A model generated the notes under the pieces. That model worked only from the letters and a program-made list of their open reading frames with translations. It was not told the origin of the DNA and ran no database searches. Below are positions 47,432 through 53,778 of a stretch of 64,000 nucleotides of DNA, piece after piece. The translations under genes and the position numbers were made by a program. Source of the DNA: Pseudarthrobacter psychrotolerans (GTDB lineage Bacteria; Actinomycetota; Actinomycetes; Actinomycetales; Micrococcaceae); assembly GCF_009911795.1 (NCBI RefSeq), contig NZ_CP047898.1:3844001-3908000 (forward strand). Reading direction: 5' to 3'. How positions within the stretch are numbered: the first letter of the stretch is position 1; each line of letters begins with the position of its first letter.

Positions 47432-47755
47432 ATGTTGCTTGCATTTTCAGTCGCCCCGTCCGGTACACTCGCCGGGGGATCGCGTCCCACCGACGCTTCA
47501 GTGCACGACGCCGTTGCGGCCGCCGTGCGGATCGTCCGGGAGTCGGGCCTGCCTAACCGGACGGACTCAATGTTCACTACCATCGAGGGCGAATGGGACG
47601 AGGTGTTCGACGTCGTAAAGCGCGCCACCGAAGCCGTTGGTAAGTTTGGCAGCCGTGTCTCATTGGTGATTAAGGCAGACATCCGGCCCGGTTATGAGGG
47701 CGAGCTCAGCGCCAAAGTGGACCGCCTCGAAGGGGCCCTCTCAGAAGGTTCCTGA
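47432..47755 (+). CDS. Thiamine-binding (MTH1187/YkoF-type, DUF77) protein
   Basis: 107 residues with the ferredoxin-like DUF77 pattern: MLLAFSVAPSGTL, VHDAVAAAVRIVRESGLPNR, SMFTTIEGEWDEVFDVVKRA and a final VSLVIKADIRPG strand. Family members bind thiamine or related pyrimidines, and YkoF is a salvage component. The ATG at 47432 is used; no good ribosome binding site is seen. It is a single-gene unit. Confidence 0.85.
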   Translation: MLLAFSVAPSGTLAGGSRPTDASVHDAVAAAVRIVRESGLPNRTDSMFTTIEGEWDEVFDVVKRATEAVGKFGSRVSLVIKADIRPGYEGELSAKVDRLEGALSEGS

Positions 47756-47800
47756 GCAGGTTTCCTGCGCCGAGTCCTAGACCGGCGTGTGCCCGCGTGC

Positions 47801-47806
47801 CAGACT
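47801..47806 (+). promoter_or_regulatory. -10 element CAGACT, likely leaderless start
   Basis: CAGACT, six bases, then the ATG at 47813. Confidence 0.45.
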
Positions 47807-47812
47807 GTCGCC

Positions 47813-48490
47813 ATGTTTGAGCACAAGACCCAGCCGGAGTGGCTGGCCGTGGAAGACTTCCTCACAACTACCGTGGTGCACCCCGACGGCGCGCTAAAGC
47901 AGGCGGTGCGCTCCGCCGTCGACGCCGGGATGCCGCCCATTGAAGTCACGCCCAACGCAGGCAAGCTGCTTAAGCTCCTGGTTCAGCTGTCCGGCGCCCG
48001 GCGGGTGCTGGAGATCGGCACGCTGGCCGGGTTCAGCACCATCTGGATGGCGCAGGGACTGCCCGACGGCGGCCGGCTGGTGACGTGCGAATATCTCACC
48101 AAACATGCGGACATCGCCCAGACCAATGTGGAGGCGGCGGGGCTGGGGGACATGGTTGAGATCCGGGTGGGCGCCGCCCTGGACACCTTGGCCGCGCTCC
48201 AGGCGGAGGGCCAGGAACCCTTCGATTTTGTGTTCATCGATGCGGACAAGGAAAACGACGCCGCGTACCTTGAGTGGGCCGTGCGCCTGGGCAGGCCGGG
48301 AACCGTGGTGGTCCTGGACAACGCCGTCTGGGAGGGCGCCGTGCTGGATTCTTCAATTGACGAGGTCAACGCCCCGGGGATCATCAGCGCCCTGGAACTG
48401 TTGGGCAAGCATCCGCAGCTCGACGCCACCGTGATCCAGACTGTCGGGTCCAAAGGCTGGGACGGGTTCGCCTTGGCGCGTGTCCGCTGA
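47813..48490 (+). CDS. O-methyltransferase (catechol/caffeoyl-CoA type)
   Basis: 225 residues. RRVLEIGTLAGFSTIWMAQ binds SAM, FDFVFIDADKENDAAYLEW holds the metal-binding Asp pair, and VVVLDNAVWEGAV the third ligand region. These enzymes methylate catechol-like hydroxyls using a divalent cation. The start follows a -10 by six bases. Confidence 0.92.
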   Translation: MFEHKTQPEWLAVEDFLTTTVVHPDGALKQAVRSAVDAGMPPIEVTPNAGKLLKLLVQLSGARRVLEIGTLAGFSTIWMAQGLPDGGRLVTCEYLTKHADIAQTNVEAAGLGDMVEIRVGAALDTLAALQAEGQEPFDFVFIDADKENDAAYLEWAVRLGRPGTVVVLDNAVWEGAVLDSSIDEVNAPGIISALELLGKHPQLDATVIQTVGSKGWDGFALARVR

Positions 48491-48588
48491 GCGCTGACCG
48501 CAAGCTTCTAACGGCAGGCATCCAACCGCGAGCCAGTGACCCGGGCAGCTGAGTCTTGGGCGCGGACCGGATCCTTCCCCGAATATTG

Positions 48589-48602
48589 CTAAGTATGCTT
48601 AG
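48589..48602. promoter_or_regulatory. CTAAG-N4-CTTAG dyad upstream of dps
   Basis: CTAAGTATGCTTAG lies 53 bases before the dps start and matches GTAAGCATGATTAG at 55955-55968 at 11 of 14 positions. Candidate stress-regulator site. Confidence 0.4.
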
Positions 48603-48655
48603 AATGACTGTCCGGCCGATGTCCCGTCCGGAACCGCCTGCAGTGGAGGAACACG

Positions 48656-49135
48656 ATGAAAGCGTCACCCACCCTTGCCAGCAACCTTCAAATGGTCCTT
48701 ACGGATCTGATTGAGCTGCATCTCCAGGCCAAGCAGGCCCACTGGAACATCGTGGGCACCAACTTCCGCGACCTTCACCTGCAGCTGGACGAGATCATCG
48801 CCAGCGTCAGGCAGTTTGCCGACGACACGGCGGAACGGATGCGGGCACTGCACGCCCTGCCCGACGGTCGGAGCAACACCGTGTCCACGGACACCCGGCT
48901 GGATGAGCTGACGGGCGGGCTGATTTCCACGAAGGACGCCGTCAAACTGATCACTGCCAGGCTGGAGCGGACGGTGCAGACCATGCGGGATGTCCACGAT
49001 GAGGTGGATGAAGAGGATCCCACCAGCGCCGACCTGCTGCATGCCGCCATCGAACGCCTGGAACAGCTCGCATGGATGGTCAATGCCGAAACCATGACTC
49101 CGTCCGCGGCCGTCACCGAACCGGCGGCAAAGTAG
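48656..49135 (+). CDS. dps: Dps family DNA-protecting ferritin-like protein
   Basis: 159 residues, a four-helix ferritin-like subunit of a 12-mer. The intersubunit ferroxidase site is present in AKQAHWNIVGTNFRDLHLQL and the following DEI (His of HWN, His/Asp/Glu further on). The N-terminus lacks a lysine-rich tail, so it may protect mainly by iron oxidation, not DNA binding. GGAGGA precedes the ATG. The acyl-CoA dehydrogenase gene starts 22 bases downstream, so read-through is possible. Confidence 0.93.
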   Translation: MKASPTLASNLQMVLTDLIELHLQAKQAHWNIVGTNFRDLHLQLDEIIASVRQFADDTAERMRALHALPDGRSNTVSTDTRLDELTGGLISTKDAVKLITARLERTVQTMRDVHDEVDEEDPTSADLLHAAIERLEQLAWMVNAETMTPSAAVTEPAAK

Positions 49136-49157
49136 GCGGGGCCGGAGAAACGCCAGC

Positions 49158-50348
49158 ATGCCTGCATCATCCCACCGGCCCGTCCGGCTGATCTCAACAC
49201 AAGCGGAACTGGCTTGGGCAGTGCCCCTGCTCGACTCCGTGGCCTCCGCGGCAGGCGATGTTCCCGCGCTGCTGTCGTTGGCTCGGGACGCGGGAGACAA
49301 CTGGCCGCAGCCAGGGGGCGGGCATGCTGCCCTTCTCTGGGAGCTGCTCGCTTCCGTCTCCGCCGTGGACGTTGCCGCCGGACGCGTTTTTGAACCACAT
49401 ATGGATGCCCAGGCGATCCTTGCCCAGGCGGAAAAGGTCCAGGCGGGGAACTATCGGCCGCGCCTTGATCCTGCGAGCCTTGTTCCCACCGACCGCAAGG
49501 GCGCGTGGGGAGTGTTTGCCGCGGAAGGCCTGGGGCTTCGCCTCGAGGCCAAGACCGGCGACGCCGGAACTCTGCTGAGCGGATCCAAACCGTGGTGTTC
49601 GTTGGCGCCGCTGCTGGACAGGGCTGTCATCACTGCCCACACCGAAACCGGCGGGAGAGCGGCCTTCGCGGTGGACCTCCGGGATCCGGGCGTGACGTGC
49701 GAGGAGCCGGCCTGGGTGGCCCGCGGGTTGCGGGAGATTCCCAGCGGGACGGTCCATTTCAGCCAGGTGCCCGCACACCAGTTGGGCAGCGACGGCTGGT
49801 ATTTCAGCCGCCCCGGTTTTGCCTGGGGTGGCATGGGGGTAGCTGCCTGCTGGCTCGGGGGCGCCGTGGGCGTGGCGCGGGACTACAAGGACTCCTTGGC
49901 TGACGCCGCTCAGTCCGGCCGCGAACCTGACCAGATTGCCCTGGCTGCCCTGGGCGAAACAGACAGGATCCTCACCGCCGCGCTCCAGTACCTGGCGCGA
50001 GCGGCAGCACTCGTTGACGACGGCAGACTTTCCGCGGGGGAAGACACGTGGGAGGCCGAGGACGGCAGCCAGCAAACCGTGGACGGCCAACCGGAGGCCG
50101 TCGAAGGCAAGCCAGCGGCGGACCGGAGCGCGTGGAGCGACGCATTGCGCGTGCGCGGAACTGTAGCGGCCGCCGTCGAGCGTGTCCTGTCCCTGGTCAG
50201 CCGGAACCGTGGTCCGGCGCCGCTGGCGTTCGACGAACCGTATGCCAAGCGCATGGCGGACCTTGCACTGTACGTGCGCCAGCACCATGCCATGCGGGAC
50301 GATGCTCAGCTGGGAAGGCTGACGCTGAAAGGGGAACATCTGTGGTGA
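49158..50348 (+). CDS. Acyl-CoA dehydrogenase-like flavoprotein of a glycan-modification set
   Basis: 396 residues with the acyl-CoA dehydrogenase fold, but divergent. LLSGSKPWCSLAPLLDRAVI and ACWLGGAVGVARDY mark the FAD-contacting middle and C-terminal helices. Residues 300-335 are a Gln/Glu-rich insertion just before the last helix bundle (PYAKRMADLALYVRQHHAMR). I cannot place the usual catalytic Glu with confidence. It overlaps the next gene by seven bases. Co-occurrence with a PIG-L/methyltransferase fusion and a GT2 suggests oxidation of an acyl or amino group in a dedicated pathway, not beta-oxidation. Confidence 0.82.
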   Translation: MPASSHRPVRLISTQAELAWAVPLLDSVASAAGDVPALLSLARDAGDNWPQPGGGHAALLWELLASVSAVDVAAGRVFEPHMDAQAILAQAEKVQAGNYRPRLDPASLVPTDRKGAWGVFAAEGLGLRLEAKTGDAGTLLSGSKPWCSLAPLLDRAVITAHTETGGRAAFAVDLRDPGVTCEEPAWVARGLREIPSGTVHFSQVPAHQLGSDGWYFSRPGFAWGGMGVAACWLGGAVGVARDYKDSLADAAQSGREPDQIALAALGETDRILTAALQYLARAAALVDDGRLSAGEDTWEAEDGSQQTVDGQPEAVEGKPAADRSAWSDALRVRGTVAAAVERVLSLVSRNRGPAPLAFDEPYAKRMADLALYVRQHHAMRDDAQLGRLTLKGEHLW

Positions 50349-51742
50349 CCTTCTCACACACCGACCAGGGGACAGCGGAGGCCCTCTGGGCGGAAAGCGG
50401 GCTCCCAGGGCTGGCGGAGTTGCTGTTGGGGCAGCAGGAATTGGCCGCCATGCGGTTCGTGGTGCTGGCTGCCCACCCCGACGACGAGACCCTGGGCGCC
50501 GGCGGCCTGCTGGCGCTGCTGCACTCGCTGGGCGCCGACGTCGAGGTGCTGTTGTGCACGGCGGGGGAGGGTTCGCACCCGGACTCGGCCAGTACCACGC
50601 CTGAACAGCTCGCTGCCGTCCGGCTTGAGGAATTTGCGGCAGCGATGGAAGTACTGGGGTTGGCCGGGCACTGGCGTTTCCTCGGGCTGCCGGACCGGGG
50701 CCTACAGGAGCGGACGCCCGAAATCGCCACCCGGCTGCGCGAGGCCATCGGGCAGCACCCCGGCCCACCGCAGGAGCTGGCAATTGTGGCCCCGTACCGA
50801 GACGACGGACACTCGGACCACAACGCCCTCGGAGCCGTGGCCGCCGACGTTGCCAACGAAGGTGGGCACGCCCTGCTGGAGTACCCCATTTGGTACTGGC
50901 TGTGGGCTTCCCCGGAGGACCCGGCCTGGCAGTCCTGGTCGCGCCTACCGCTGAGTACTGAACAGCAGGCGGCGAAGAGATCCGCCATGGACTCACACAC
51001 GAGCCAGATACGTCCGTTGTCCGGGTTGCCCGGGGACGAAGTGCTCCTCGGCGAGAGCCTGCTGCAACATTTCAGGCGCGCGTTTGAGACTTTTGCCTGG
51101 ACGCCGCCAAGGGCCCACCCGGTCCAATCCACTCCCAACACGAGTGCCGACGCGCAGCGGATCTTCGACGCAGTCCACTCGAAGTCCGAGGACCCCTGGG
51201 CGTACATCACCAGCTGGTACGAGCGGCGCAAGCGCGCCCTCACGCTCGCCGCACTACCCCGGGAGAAGTACCGGTCGGGCCTGGAAATCGGCTGCTCCAT
51301 CGGAACCCTGACCGCCGAATTGGCCACCAGATGCACCCGCCTCCTTGCCGTGGATGCTAGCGGCACCGCGCTCGAGCTTGCGGCCCGGCGCCTCGCGCCG
51401 TTTCCCGGGGTCTCCACGCGGCAGCTGACGCTCCCCGCTGACTGGCCCGGGGGCAGCTACGACCTTGTGGTGGTCTCCGAAGTGGGCTACTACCTGTCGC
51501 CTGCGGAGTTTGAGCTGCTGCTGCAGCGGATCCAGGAATCGATAGCGCCGGGCGGAACGCTGCTGCTGTGCCATTGGCGGCACCCGGTTTCCGGATGGGA
51601 GCTCGACGGCGACTCCGTCCACGCGCTGGCCCGGAACCGGCTGCGGTGGCCCACCGCCAGTCTCTACCGGGAACGCGATTTTGTGCTGGAAACACTGGTG
51701 GCTCCCGGTGAGACCGGCGATCCCGGACCTCCGGTGTCCTGA
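50342..51742 (+). CDS. PIG-L deacetylase fused to NodS-like SAM methyltransferase
   Basis: 466 residues from the GTG at 50342 (AAAGGGGA upstream; GTG 50345 also possible). Residues 1-250 are a PIG-L/LmbE zinc N-deacetylase: AAHPDDETLGAGG near residue 41 and RDDGHSDHNALG near 158. Residues 275-460 are a class I methyltransferase: YERRKRALTLAALPREKYRS leading to LEIGCSIGTLTAELA near residue 312 and LLAVDASGTALELAARRL, closest in layout to rhizobial NodS. NodS N-methylates a de-N-acetylated glucosamine, so one polypeptide could deacetylate then methylate an amino sugar. The substrate is inferred. Confidence 0.88.
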   Translation: MVTFSHTDQGTAEALWAESGLPGLAELLLGQQELAAMRFVVLAAHPDDETLGAGGLLALLHSLGADVEVLLCTAGEGSHPDSASTTPEQLAAVRLEEFAAAMEVLGLAGHWRFLGLPDRGLQERTPEIATRLREAIGQHPGPPQELAIVAPYRDDGHSDHNALGAVAADVANEGGHALLEYPIWYWLWASPEDPAWQSWSRLPLSTEQQAAKRSAMDSHTSQIRPLSGLPGDEVLLGESLLQHFRRAFETFAWTPPRAHPVQSTPNTSADAQRIFDAVHSKSEDPWAYITSWYERRKRALTLAALPREKYRSGLEIGCSIGTLTAELATRCTRLLAVDASGTALELAARRLAPFPGVSTRQLTLPADWPGGSYDLVVVSEVGYYLSPAEFELLLQRIQESIAPGGTLLLCHWRHPVSGWELDGDSVHALARNRLRWPTASLYRERDFVLETLVAPGETGDPGPPVS

Positions 51743-51743
51743 C

Positions 51744-52502
51744 ATGGACAGGATCGCACAGGTTGCCGTGGTTATTCCGGTCCATAACGAGGAACCGCAC
51801 CTGACACGTGCCCTGGCAGCCGTCAGTGCCGCAGCCGATGCCCTGCAGGACACGCAGCCGGACACGGACATCGCCATCGTGGTGGTCCTGGACAGCTGCA
51901 CTGACGGCTCGGGCGACGTGGCCGCGCGTTTTGCCGCGGCAGACCACCGCATCACCCTGCTGCCGGTCGCGTTCCGCAGCGTCGGGAGGAGCCGGCGCGC
52001 AGGCATCAATCTGGTCCTCACAGGGCGCTTGCCGGACTGTGCGGGGGCGGGGCGCCCGCGGACCGGCGAACGCGTATGGCTGGCCAATACCGACGCTGAT
52101 TCCTGCGTTCCGGAAAACTGGCTCCTGCGTCAGGTGGAACTGGCTGACCGCGGCGCAGATGCAGTCCTGGGAACGGTGGAACCGGATCCGGCGGGCATGG
52201 ACGGCGAACTCCTGAGGCGCTGGCACGTCCGGCATCCGCTGGGGGAGGACCATCCCCACGTGTACGGTGCGAATTTCGGGGTGCGGGCTTCGGCCTACAT
52301 TCGTGCTGGTGGCTTTCCCCGTCAGCGCTCGCATGAGGACCGGGCACTGGCAGCACGGCTACGCCGCCACGGGTACCGAATTACGTCCACGGACACGGTC
52401 CGGGTTGTGACCTCAGGGCGGACCGAGGCCCGGGCGCCGCAAGGTTTCGGCGCCTACCTGCTGGCCCTTGGCATGGAGTCCGCTGTGGCGTTCGAACGCT
52501 GA
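51744..52502 (+). CDS. Family 2 glycosyltransferase
   Basis: 252 residues with the GT-A fold: AVVIPVHNEEPHLTRALAAV at the start, LDSCTDGSGDVAAR, the WLANTDADSCVPENWL metal-binding DxD, GANFGVRASAYIRAGGF and HEDRALAARLRRHGYRI. There is no membrane helix, so it is a soluble transferase, not a processive synthase. The ATG is one base after the stop of the PIG-L/methyltransferase gene. It probably supplies the sugar substrate of that fusion enzyme. The acceptor is unknown. Confidence 0.9.
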   Translation: MDRIAQVAVVIPVHNEEPHLTRALAAVSAAADALQDTQPDTDIAIVVVLDSCTDGSGDVAARFAAADHRITLLPVAFRSVGRSRRAGINLVLTGRLPDCAGAGRPRTGERVWLANTDADSCVPENWLLRQVELADRGADAVLGTVEPDPAGMDGELLRRWHVRHPLGEDHPHVYGANFGVRASAYIRAGGFPRQRSHEDRALAARLRRHGYRITSTDTVRVVTSGRTEARAPQGFGAYLLALGMESAVAFER

Positions 52503-52665
52503 GAAGCGAAGAAAAGCGAGGGGGCCGACGACGACTGGGGGACTGGCCTCGGTCTCAGAAGAGGCCACCTCGCCGCCGACCCCGCCTGACACCCGGGACG
52601 TCAAAGACCCGGGAAAACTGAAGGAATCTGCTGATATTGATCTTCCTCCAAGTGGCGAGTCCTGC

Positions 52666-53778
52666 CTAGTCCCGCCTGGCGCTGTCCTGTTCCGCATCCG
52701 GTTCCGCCTGATCCGGGCCGTTCCGGTGGCGTTCACGCAGCTCGCGGCCGCGCCGGATGTCGTCCTCTTCCTGCTCCTGCATCTTCTCGCTCTTCTTGGT
52801 GTCCCGCGGCGGAAGCTGGATGGTCTCTTCGGCCTCGATTCCCGCCTGGAGCTGGCGTCCGCGCTCCATCTCGGCGTCGAACTCGGCCCCGAACAGCAGC
52901 GACATGTTCAGGATCCACAGCCAGAGCAGCATAACGATCACACCGCCGAGCGCGCCGTAGGTCTTGTTGTAGTTGCCAAAGTTGGCCACGTAGAAGCCGA
53001 ACCCCAGTGAGGCCAGCAGGAAGATGAGCAGGGCTATCCCGGAGCCAAGGCTCATCCATCTGAACTTCGGTTGCTTGACGTTGGGCGTGGCGTAGTAGAG
53101 CACAGCGATGATGACGACGATGAGCGCCACCATCACTGGCCACTTGGCGATGTTCCAGATGGTGAGGAACGCACCGCTGAGCCCGATGAAGCCGCCGACG
53201 GCCTCTGCCACAGGTCCGCTGAGTACCAGCATGCCTGCCAGGAGCGCCACTATGACTACGGCGAGGAGCGTAACAGCGAGCATGGTTCCGCGCAGCTTGA
53301 TGAAAGGACGGCCTTCATCGATCTCGTAAATCCGGTTCATGGCCCGACCGAAAGCACCAACGTACCCCGAGGCGGACCAGAGCGCGGTTGCAAGGCCTAT
53401 GACCAGAGTCAGCCCTGCCGCCGGGGCGCTGACTAGCTCCTCAACTGGGCCGCTAACGGTATTCACTGTCTCGGCAGGGGCGAAGCCCCGCACGATTTCG
53501 AGCAGGGCCGTGGTTGTTTTCTCGGGGTCCCCAAAGAGCCCGATCAGGGAAACGAGCGCGAGCATGGCAGGAAACAAGGACAGCACGGCGTAGTAAGTAA
53601 GGGCTGCCGAGAGGTCCGGACACTGGTCTTTGTTGAACTCCCTGAGGGTCTTCTTAGCTATGTACTTCCAGGACGGTTTGGTGACGTCGGTGGGGCTGTC
53701 CGGTTTCCGGGAGTCGTCGGGCGCCGGTGCTTGGCCCGCTTTGGCAGTGCTGGTTTCGGATGAGTCTTGAGCGGCCAT
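52666..53778 (-). CDS. YihY/BrkB family inner-membrane protein
   Basis: 370 residues. Six membrane helices with the family signature DLSAALTYYAVLSLFPAMLA near residue 57 and AFGRAMNRIYEIDEGRPFIK near 143, framed by charged, Gln/Glu-rich tails. Once called ribonuclease BN in error; the real role is unknown, possibly transport. It is last in a minus-strand run of stress-type membrane proteins, 93 bases after the DUF3618 gene. Confidence 0.92.
   Translation of the reverse strand: MAAQDSSETSTAKAGQAPAPDDSRKPDSPTDVTKPSWKYIAKKTLREFNKDQCPDLSAALTYYAVLSLFPAMLALVSLIGLFGDPEKTTTALLEIVRGFAPAETVNTVSGPVEELVSAPAAGLTLVIGLATALWSASGYVGAFGRAMNRIYEIDEGRPFIKLRGTMLAVTLLAVVIVALLAGMLVLSGPVAEAVGGFIGLSGAFLTIWNIAKWPVMVALIVVIIAVLYYATPNVKQPKFRWMSLGSGIALLIFLLASLGFGFYVANFGNYNKTYGALGGVIVMLLWLWILNMSLLFGAEFDAEMERGRQLQAGIEAEETIQLPPRDTKKSEKMQEQEEDDIRRGRELRERHRNGPDQAEPDAEQDSARRD

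Follow-up and report, generated by a model that had tools for sequence, protein, structure and literature searches.

In a stretch of 64,000 nucleotides from Pseudarthrobacter psychrotolerans (contig NZ_CP047898.1, positions 3,844,001 to 3,908,000; hereafter the window), three consecutive genes encode four activities: a flavoprotein with the acyl-CoA dehydrogenase (ACAD) fold (gene 1), a PIG-L deacetylase fused to a NodS-like methyltransferase (gene 2) and a GT2 glycosyltransferase (gene 3). Comparisons among genomes show that the four are inherited together and partly fused and, judged by protein family, the set is conserved, without a name, across four phyla (Actinomycetota, Proteobacteria, Deinococcota and Cyanobacteria). 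We are nearly certain that the genes work together as a unit. A preliminary description of the window, drawn from its letters alone, had proposed that they make up a single pathway with no known product. The pathway claim is well supported at the level of sequence, through co-location, operon spacing and fusions of two and three domains, and we infer its chemistry from the enzyme families. No function or described product for the set was found in the full-text literature searched, in which most subscription papers are not covered. The set is widespread, yet the label of each of its enzymes is either generic or probably misleading. If its product were known, the repeated association with Dps, catalase, Ku/LigD and trehalose genes would be explained, and one 'acyl-CoA dehydrogenase' family would be relabelled.

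Co-location and architecture of the gene set

The ACAD-like family was followed through a family sample of 149 genomes and a phylum sample of 346 genomes, both of which include the window's own genome (G000, 5.17 Mb) and G009, from the same genus. Co-location was scored where the methyltransferase family lay within 4 kb of an ACAD-like gene (methyltransferase places at E ≤1e-15; ACAD-like places at E ≤1e-20 in the phylum sample). The ACAD-like family occurs in 75 genomes of the family sample (75 places) and in 43 of the phylum sample. In the former, all 75 main matches score above 150 bits; among the matches listed, second pieces of split matches reach at most 97.9 bits and ordinary ACADs at most 61.7. 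In the family sample the methyltransferase accompanies 74 of the 75 ACAD-like places, the exception being G009, and all 74 methyltransferase places have an ACAD-like gene. Corresponding counts in the phylum sample are 39 of 43 (exceptions G009, G243, G399 and G441) and, in the reverse direction, 39 of 45, with six methyltransferase places standing without the ACAD-like gene. As a control, none of 70 lower-scoring ACAD places among the matches listed lies near the methyltransferase, 36 of them in genomes that possess it; this count excludes the second piece of five strong matches that had been split (G009, G061, G066, G083 and G089). On these counts, the arrangement is far beyond chance, and the co-occurrence in other genomes that the preliminary description proposed as a check is borne out.

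Forty of the 75 family neighbourhoods were fetched, and 39 of them encode all four activities. The PIG-L and methyltransferase domains share a single reading frame in 38 of the 40, and in seven of these GT2 is joined to them as well; at one other locus (L154) the parts are unfused and rearranged. In G009 (locus L155), the ACAD-like gene stands by itself between dps and brkB; with neither the fusion gene nor GT2, the locus has apparently suffered a partial loss.

Greater variation is found outside the family. From at least 519 relatives in named genomes we took 80 loci of Beta- and Gammaproteobacteria. Within the stretch examined at each, 53 encode all four activities; PIG-L is absent from 13, and no GT2 was recognised in 14. 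All 80 have the methyltransferase, once at a distance of ~6 kb (L060). Seven of the 13 genomes without PIG-L at the locus were searched for it elsewhere: in five of them no PIG-L of this family was found at 1e-8, one has a weak match and one has a strong, unlinked match. Many Pseudomonas loci (L048, L051, L056 and others) carry a second PIG-L gene 3' of GT2, at ~11.1-11.9 kb.

The order of the genes also varies. Four separate genes are found on annotated plasmids of Pandoraea and Acinetobacter, and on a Sulfitobacter plasmid with a longer glycosyltransferase. GT2 lies upstream in Sphingomonas and is inverted in Bradyrhizobium and Komagataeibacter (annotated plasmids), and likewise on a Nostoc plasmid that encodes all four activities. 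On one Methylobacterium plasmid the ACAD-like gene stands without the other members of the set. In Deinococcus the ACAD-like domain is fused to an N-terminal extension of ~430 aa, which has no Pfam match above cut-off (L130:6543-8882, L004:2104-4476), and GT2 was not found; in D. radiodurans a helicase gene stands between the PIG-L and methyltransferase genes. Gloeothece has the ACAD-like gene with a methyltransferase scoring just 12 bits. An FMN reductase gene (L134:7240-7797) adjoins the ACAD-like gene there and may supply reduced flavin.

Two actinobacterial families depart from the scheme in a consistent way. At their 11 loci (L179-L189; ten of family f18, one of f9), PIG-L was not found in any, and all 11 carry a TodA-like FAD reductase between the methyltransferase and GT2 genes; at L187, which lies at a contig end, it follows the methyltransferase. 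Its presence agrees with the predicted use of reduced flavin and oxygen by a flavin monooxygenase. Because PIG-L was not found in some Proteobacteria loci or in these actinobacterial ones, it is not universal, and the most constant pair, the core of the set, is the ACAD-like protein with the methyltransferase.

GT2 was found at ten of the 11 loci, and at seven of the ten an in-frame fusion joins it to a GpgS/MpgS-type domain. The domain of L189, the only one scored, reaches 341.9 bits against NF010496 (cut-off 262) and 275 bits against 3f1y. This fusion is the only hint of an acceptor, and it is the basis of an alternative in which the set makes a glucosyl- or mannosylglycerate derivative of compatible-solute type, GT2 extending or decorating the core before methylation and oxygenation. 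Neighbouring genes lend it something too, with two trehalose-phosphatases and three alpha-amylases among 104 Proteobacteria neighbour proteins and OtsAB adjoining the set in Acinetobacter plasmids. Against it, the GpgS fusion was seen only in lineages that also lack PIG-L, the window's genome has just a 27-bit match to the GpgS-type domain, and no GpgS relative was found at 1e-6 in the window or the other loci examined. We regard a glycosylglycerate product as unlikely for the set as a whole.

Within the window, gene 2 overlaps gene 1 by four bases, its GTG start lying within a GTGA that contains the stop of gene 1. The ATG of gene 3 comes one base past the stop of gene 2, and a mechanical open reading frame from 51681 is longer. 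All three are on the plus strand, in keeping with the overlapping or abutting genes first described. No second full copy of the fusion exists in the window's genome, where the other match scores only 27.3 bits. In the protein search close relatives come from Pseudarthrobacter and Arthrobacter. Coordinates are collected in Table 1.

Table 1. Positions of the gene set, its domains and the upstream gene, numbered within the window
Feature	Coordinates	Strand	Remarks
ACAD-fold flavoprotein gene (gene 1)	49158..50348	+	396 aa; relatives annotated acyl-CoA dehydrogenase or hypothetical
PIG-L / NodS-like methyltransferase fusion (gene 2)	50345..51742	+	465 aa, GTG start, bifunctional
PIG-L domain of gene 2	50459..50848	+	residues 39-168; HPDDE and HxDH motifs
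NodS-like class I SAM methyltransferase domain of gene 2	51185..51646	+	residues 281-434
GT-A fold GT2 glycosyltransferase (gene 3)	51744..52502	+	252 aa, TDAD motif, predicted soluble
Dps-type ferritin-like protein gene	48656..49135	+	upstream of gene 1; Ferritin/Dps family matches

Gene 1 and the other enzyme domains

Gene 1 is probably a monooxygenase-type enzyme. It has the ACAD fold across three domains and over its full length, and its sole Pfam match, to Acyl-CoA_dh_M, reaches 30 bits against a cut-off of 33.3. Residues ~290-325 form a low-complexity insert of low model confidence that is absent from the seven relatives aligned first. The column of the ACAD catalytic glutamate (the YEGT position, presumably Glu376 of MCAD) was set by five ACADs of the window's own genome (L200-L203 and L205), chosen by an EGT-type motif; a sixth, L204, has no such frame. 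Across 70 aligned family sequences this column holds S (30), H (25), P (7), A (4), D (2), F (1) or Q (1), and never E. An EGT pattern sought without anchoring to the alignment matches 12 of 139 ACAD-family sequences, in no case in the catalytic column of the 70 aligned. The alternative glutamate position of isovaleryl-type enzymes, which by eye probably corresponds to G224, holds G in 63, D in six and F in one.

By profile, gene 1 is nearest to the flavin monooxygenases DszC (93.6 bits) and MsuC (84.2 bits). These two and TdsC (79.9 bits) are its best matches of named function, and KijD3 follows at 69.9 bits, against 58.6 for SCAD. TdsC, DszC, XiaF, DnmZ and KijD3 are among the top 20 structures returned by Foldseek. 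Ser148 of gene 1 aligns with DszC Ser163 and is kept in 68 of the 70 sequences. The position of DszC His391 is Gln in 69 of the 70, as it is in gene 1. We take both DszC residues to belong to the active site. Not all scores follow this division: 5gj7 (82.2 bits) and 2dvl (72.8 bits) are both named dehydrogenases, and the nitrososynthase 3mxl, at 58.6 bits, does no better than SCAD. Gene 1 further differs from the ACAD-fold (class D) flavin monooxygenases in sharing only ~17% identity with them and in having Gln where DszC has His391, and a reductase is linked to the set in some lineages only.

The label of divergent acyl-CoA dehydrogenase in the preliminary description thus holds for the fold and fails for the catalytic column and the nearest profiles. 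A genuine acyl-CoA or acyl-ACP dehydrogenase, shaping the fatty acyl group of a lipo-glycoconjugate, would accord with the annotation in plasmid records and with a full-length ACAD fold. Set against these are a catalytic column devoid of glutamate, a Pfam middle domain below cut-off and profiles nearest to monooxygenases, and we judge a functional dehydrogenase very unlikely.

The other three domains are assigned with scores well above threshold. Gene 2 matches Pfam PIG-L at 91.6 bits (cut-off 28.2) and NodS at 46.5 bits (cut-off 24), and gene 3 matches Glycos_transf_2 at 56.2 bits (cut-off 23.3). A motif scan covered 140 loci. HPDDE and HxDH, which we take to be the metal and base motifs, are both present in 112 of 114 PIG-L domains, and a DxD-type motif is present in all 122 GT2 domains. 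In the methyltransferase, E56, G58 and G62 of the S-adenosylmethionine (SAM) motif E-x-G-x-x-x-G are invariant in the nine sequences aligned, and the strict pattern is met by 110 of 137 scanned. The preliminary description had named rare co-occurrence and a NodS domain lacking SAM-binding residues as grounds for abandoning it; co-occurrence proved frequent and the motif is kept, so neither ground applies.

Likeness to NodS itself is partial: the Pfam cut-off is exceeded, and the equivalog NF041650 is not reached (56.8 bits against 300). Among PDB entries, the methyltransferase domain matches 4isc_A at 151.9 bits and NodS (3ofj_A) at 49.8 bits. The former, a direct relative listed only as 'Methyltransferase', is presumably a P. 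syringae protein from structural genomics. GT2 alone gave no match at 0.001 in a PDB sequence search, and its best NCBIfam match, EpsD, scores 32.2 bits against a cut-off of 370. A fold search singled out no one acceptor class, its neighbours including the fucosyltransferase WrtF. The GT-A fold and the lack of a recognised membrane part agree with the soluble enzyme first proposed.

A candidate pathway and its relatives

Our preferred reading, which we put forward tentatively and at somewhat less than even chances, is a soluble pathway of glycosyl transfer, optional de-N-acetylation, methylation and flavin-dependent oxygenation that acts on an amino-sugar-like glycoside in stress. GT2 would transfer a sugar, most simply an N-acetylamino sugar, onto a small or lipid-linked acceptor. 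PIG-L would then remove the acetyl group and free the amine, and the methyltransferase would methylate that amine or an adjacent hydroxyl. The flavoprotein would oxygenate the sugar using reduced flavin, most simply at nitrogen in the manner of KijD3, enzymes of that type being nitrogen oxygenases. The product may be an intracellular or envelope glycoside for stress or stationary phase. At loci without PIG-L, the amine could be supplied in another way, or a newly freed amine might not be what the flavoprotein and methyltransferase act on.

A narrower version, which we consider rather improbable, makes the product a cross-phylum stress metabolite: an N-methylated, N-oxygenated amino-sugar glycoside built by a portable four-enzyme pathway, the 'acyl-CoA dehydrogenase' being the amino-sugar oxygenase. 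It would also take in where the set is carried: in part next to genes for Dps, catalase or DNA repair, and at times on plasmids that are mobilizable or conjugative.

The preliminary description had likened the set to NodC-NodB-NodS. The logic of sugar transfer, de-N-acetylation and N-methylation is shared, and the methyltransferase domain lies above the Pfam NodS cut-off. The deacetylase of the set, by contrast, has the PIG-L fold rather than that of NodB, and a flavoprotein is added. NodC is a membrane chitin-oligosaccharide synthase; GT2 of the set has 252 aa and no recognised membrane part. Since PIG-L was not found in 13 of the 80 Proteobacteria loci or in any of the 11 loci of f18 and f9, the set does not follow the NodC-NodB-NodS order throughout. 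The Nod-factor pathway proper was rejected, given the PIG-L fold and the NodS equivalog score.

The mycothiol and bacillithiol pathways combine a glycosyltransferase, of family GT4, with a PIG-L deacetylase in one small-molecule pathway, and the set makes a similar pairing. It differs in having GT2 rather than GT4, in matching none of the equivalogs, and in having a methyltransferase and a flavoprotein in place of a cysteine ligase. We weighed the possibility that the set makes a comparable low-molecular-weight thiol or an S-modified glycoside, in which case the flavoprotein would oxygenate sulfur in the way of DszC and MsuC. PIG-L is nearest to BshB1 (46 bits) and MshB (40.5 bits) among NCBIfam deacetylases, the flavoprotein has S-oxygenases as its top PDB profile matches, and oxidative-stress genes are neighbours. 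The respective cut-offs of 182.5 and 224.35 are nevertheless far from reached (BshB2 gives 35.6 against 195.25), and an enzyme that adds cysteine does not appear among the 25 commonest neighbour families. A thiol product therefore seems very improbable.

Stress-related neighbours and published expression

The Dps-type gene, whose end at 49135 leaves 22 bases to gene 1, is a recurrent neighbour outside the conserved core and possibly shares a transcript with gene 1; a promoter and terminator scan of 47700-52800 gave nothing clearly exceeding shuffled sequence. Its product has Ferritin and Dps family matches and scores 82.8 bits against the Dps equivalog cut-off of 114. A relative immediately precedes the ACAD-like gene, on the same strand, in six of the 40 family loci, which represent three genera including the window's, with 156-209 bases between the matched parts. 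Three of the six are L155 and L161 (the window's genus) and L176 (genus g28, 70% identical). The Dps relatives of L150, L163 and L171 (genus g8) are ~30% identical to the window's, all matching Ferritin, and their identical placement suggests repeated recruitment of Dps genes. Three further loci (L166, L167 and L175) have a Dps relative within ~5 kb. Within the window's genus, Dps stands beside the set in only three of eight genomes, the window's included. The stress link first read from Dps proximity is thus supported by recurrence, with two types of Dps, and weakened by this patchiness.

Other neighbours point in the same direction in small numbers. Around 25 Proteobacteria loci, 104 neighbour proteins, chosen from the 150 nearest genes, include DNA ligase (4), LigD (3), Ku (2), catalase (2) and trehalose-phosphatase (2), tallied over the 25 most frequent of 105 families; sensor kinases are also near some loci. 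Around 20 family loci (110 neighbour proteins) the picture is mixed, with amidase (6), phosphoglucomutase (4) and Ferritin (2) among the 25 most frequent of 96 families. Neighbour genes were called by a simple open reading frame rule. Single plasmid records have catalase, Ku/LigD, OtsAB, CsbD and a general stress protein near the set, and a Sphingomonas locus (L009) has Dps and catalase nearby.

Published expression data touch one relative of the set. According to Table 2 of PMC5660220, four Acinetobacter baumannii genes (GT, MT, LmbE and ACAD-related; ACICU_02432-02435) form an operon, 'e', that is down 31- to 62-fold in two colistin-dependent mutants in which lpxC is disrupted or LpxA altered. 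The four activities are those of the set, here as four separate genes, and an A. baumannii locus of ours (L137) encodes all four by profile; the two are equated by gene names and order rather than by sequence. In the passages of PMC6240043 and PMC9948694 that concern it, the operon adjoins the blue-light sensor gene blsA. Relevant passages of PMC5423435, PMC10376123, PMC10325922 and PMC12647597 are about other genes or ones nearby, among them those for bacterioferritin, MFS, trehalose and catalase. In none of these papers' passages is the set assigned a function.

The drop in mutants of lpxC and LpxA would also agree with a role in modifying an envelope glycan or lipid (exopolysaccharide, O-antigen or the end group of a lipo-oligosaccharide) rather than a soluble metabolite. 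So would the EpsD match, far under its cut-off as it is, the fold neighbour WrtF and the extra glycosyltransferases at Novosphingobium and Jiella loci. Counter to this, flippases and polymer exporters do not appear among the 25 commonest neighbour families of either list (105 and 96 families), and the set is present in cells of very different envelopes. We hold envelope modification to be a minority possibility, and continue to favour the soluble pathway.

On two Acinetobacter plasmids (L007 and L138) a stress island brings the four-gene set together with catalase, OtsAB and an MFS transporter, and insertion sequences are close by in L138.

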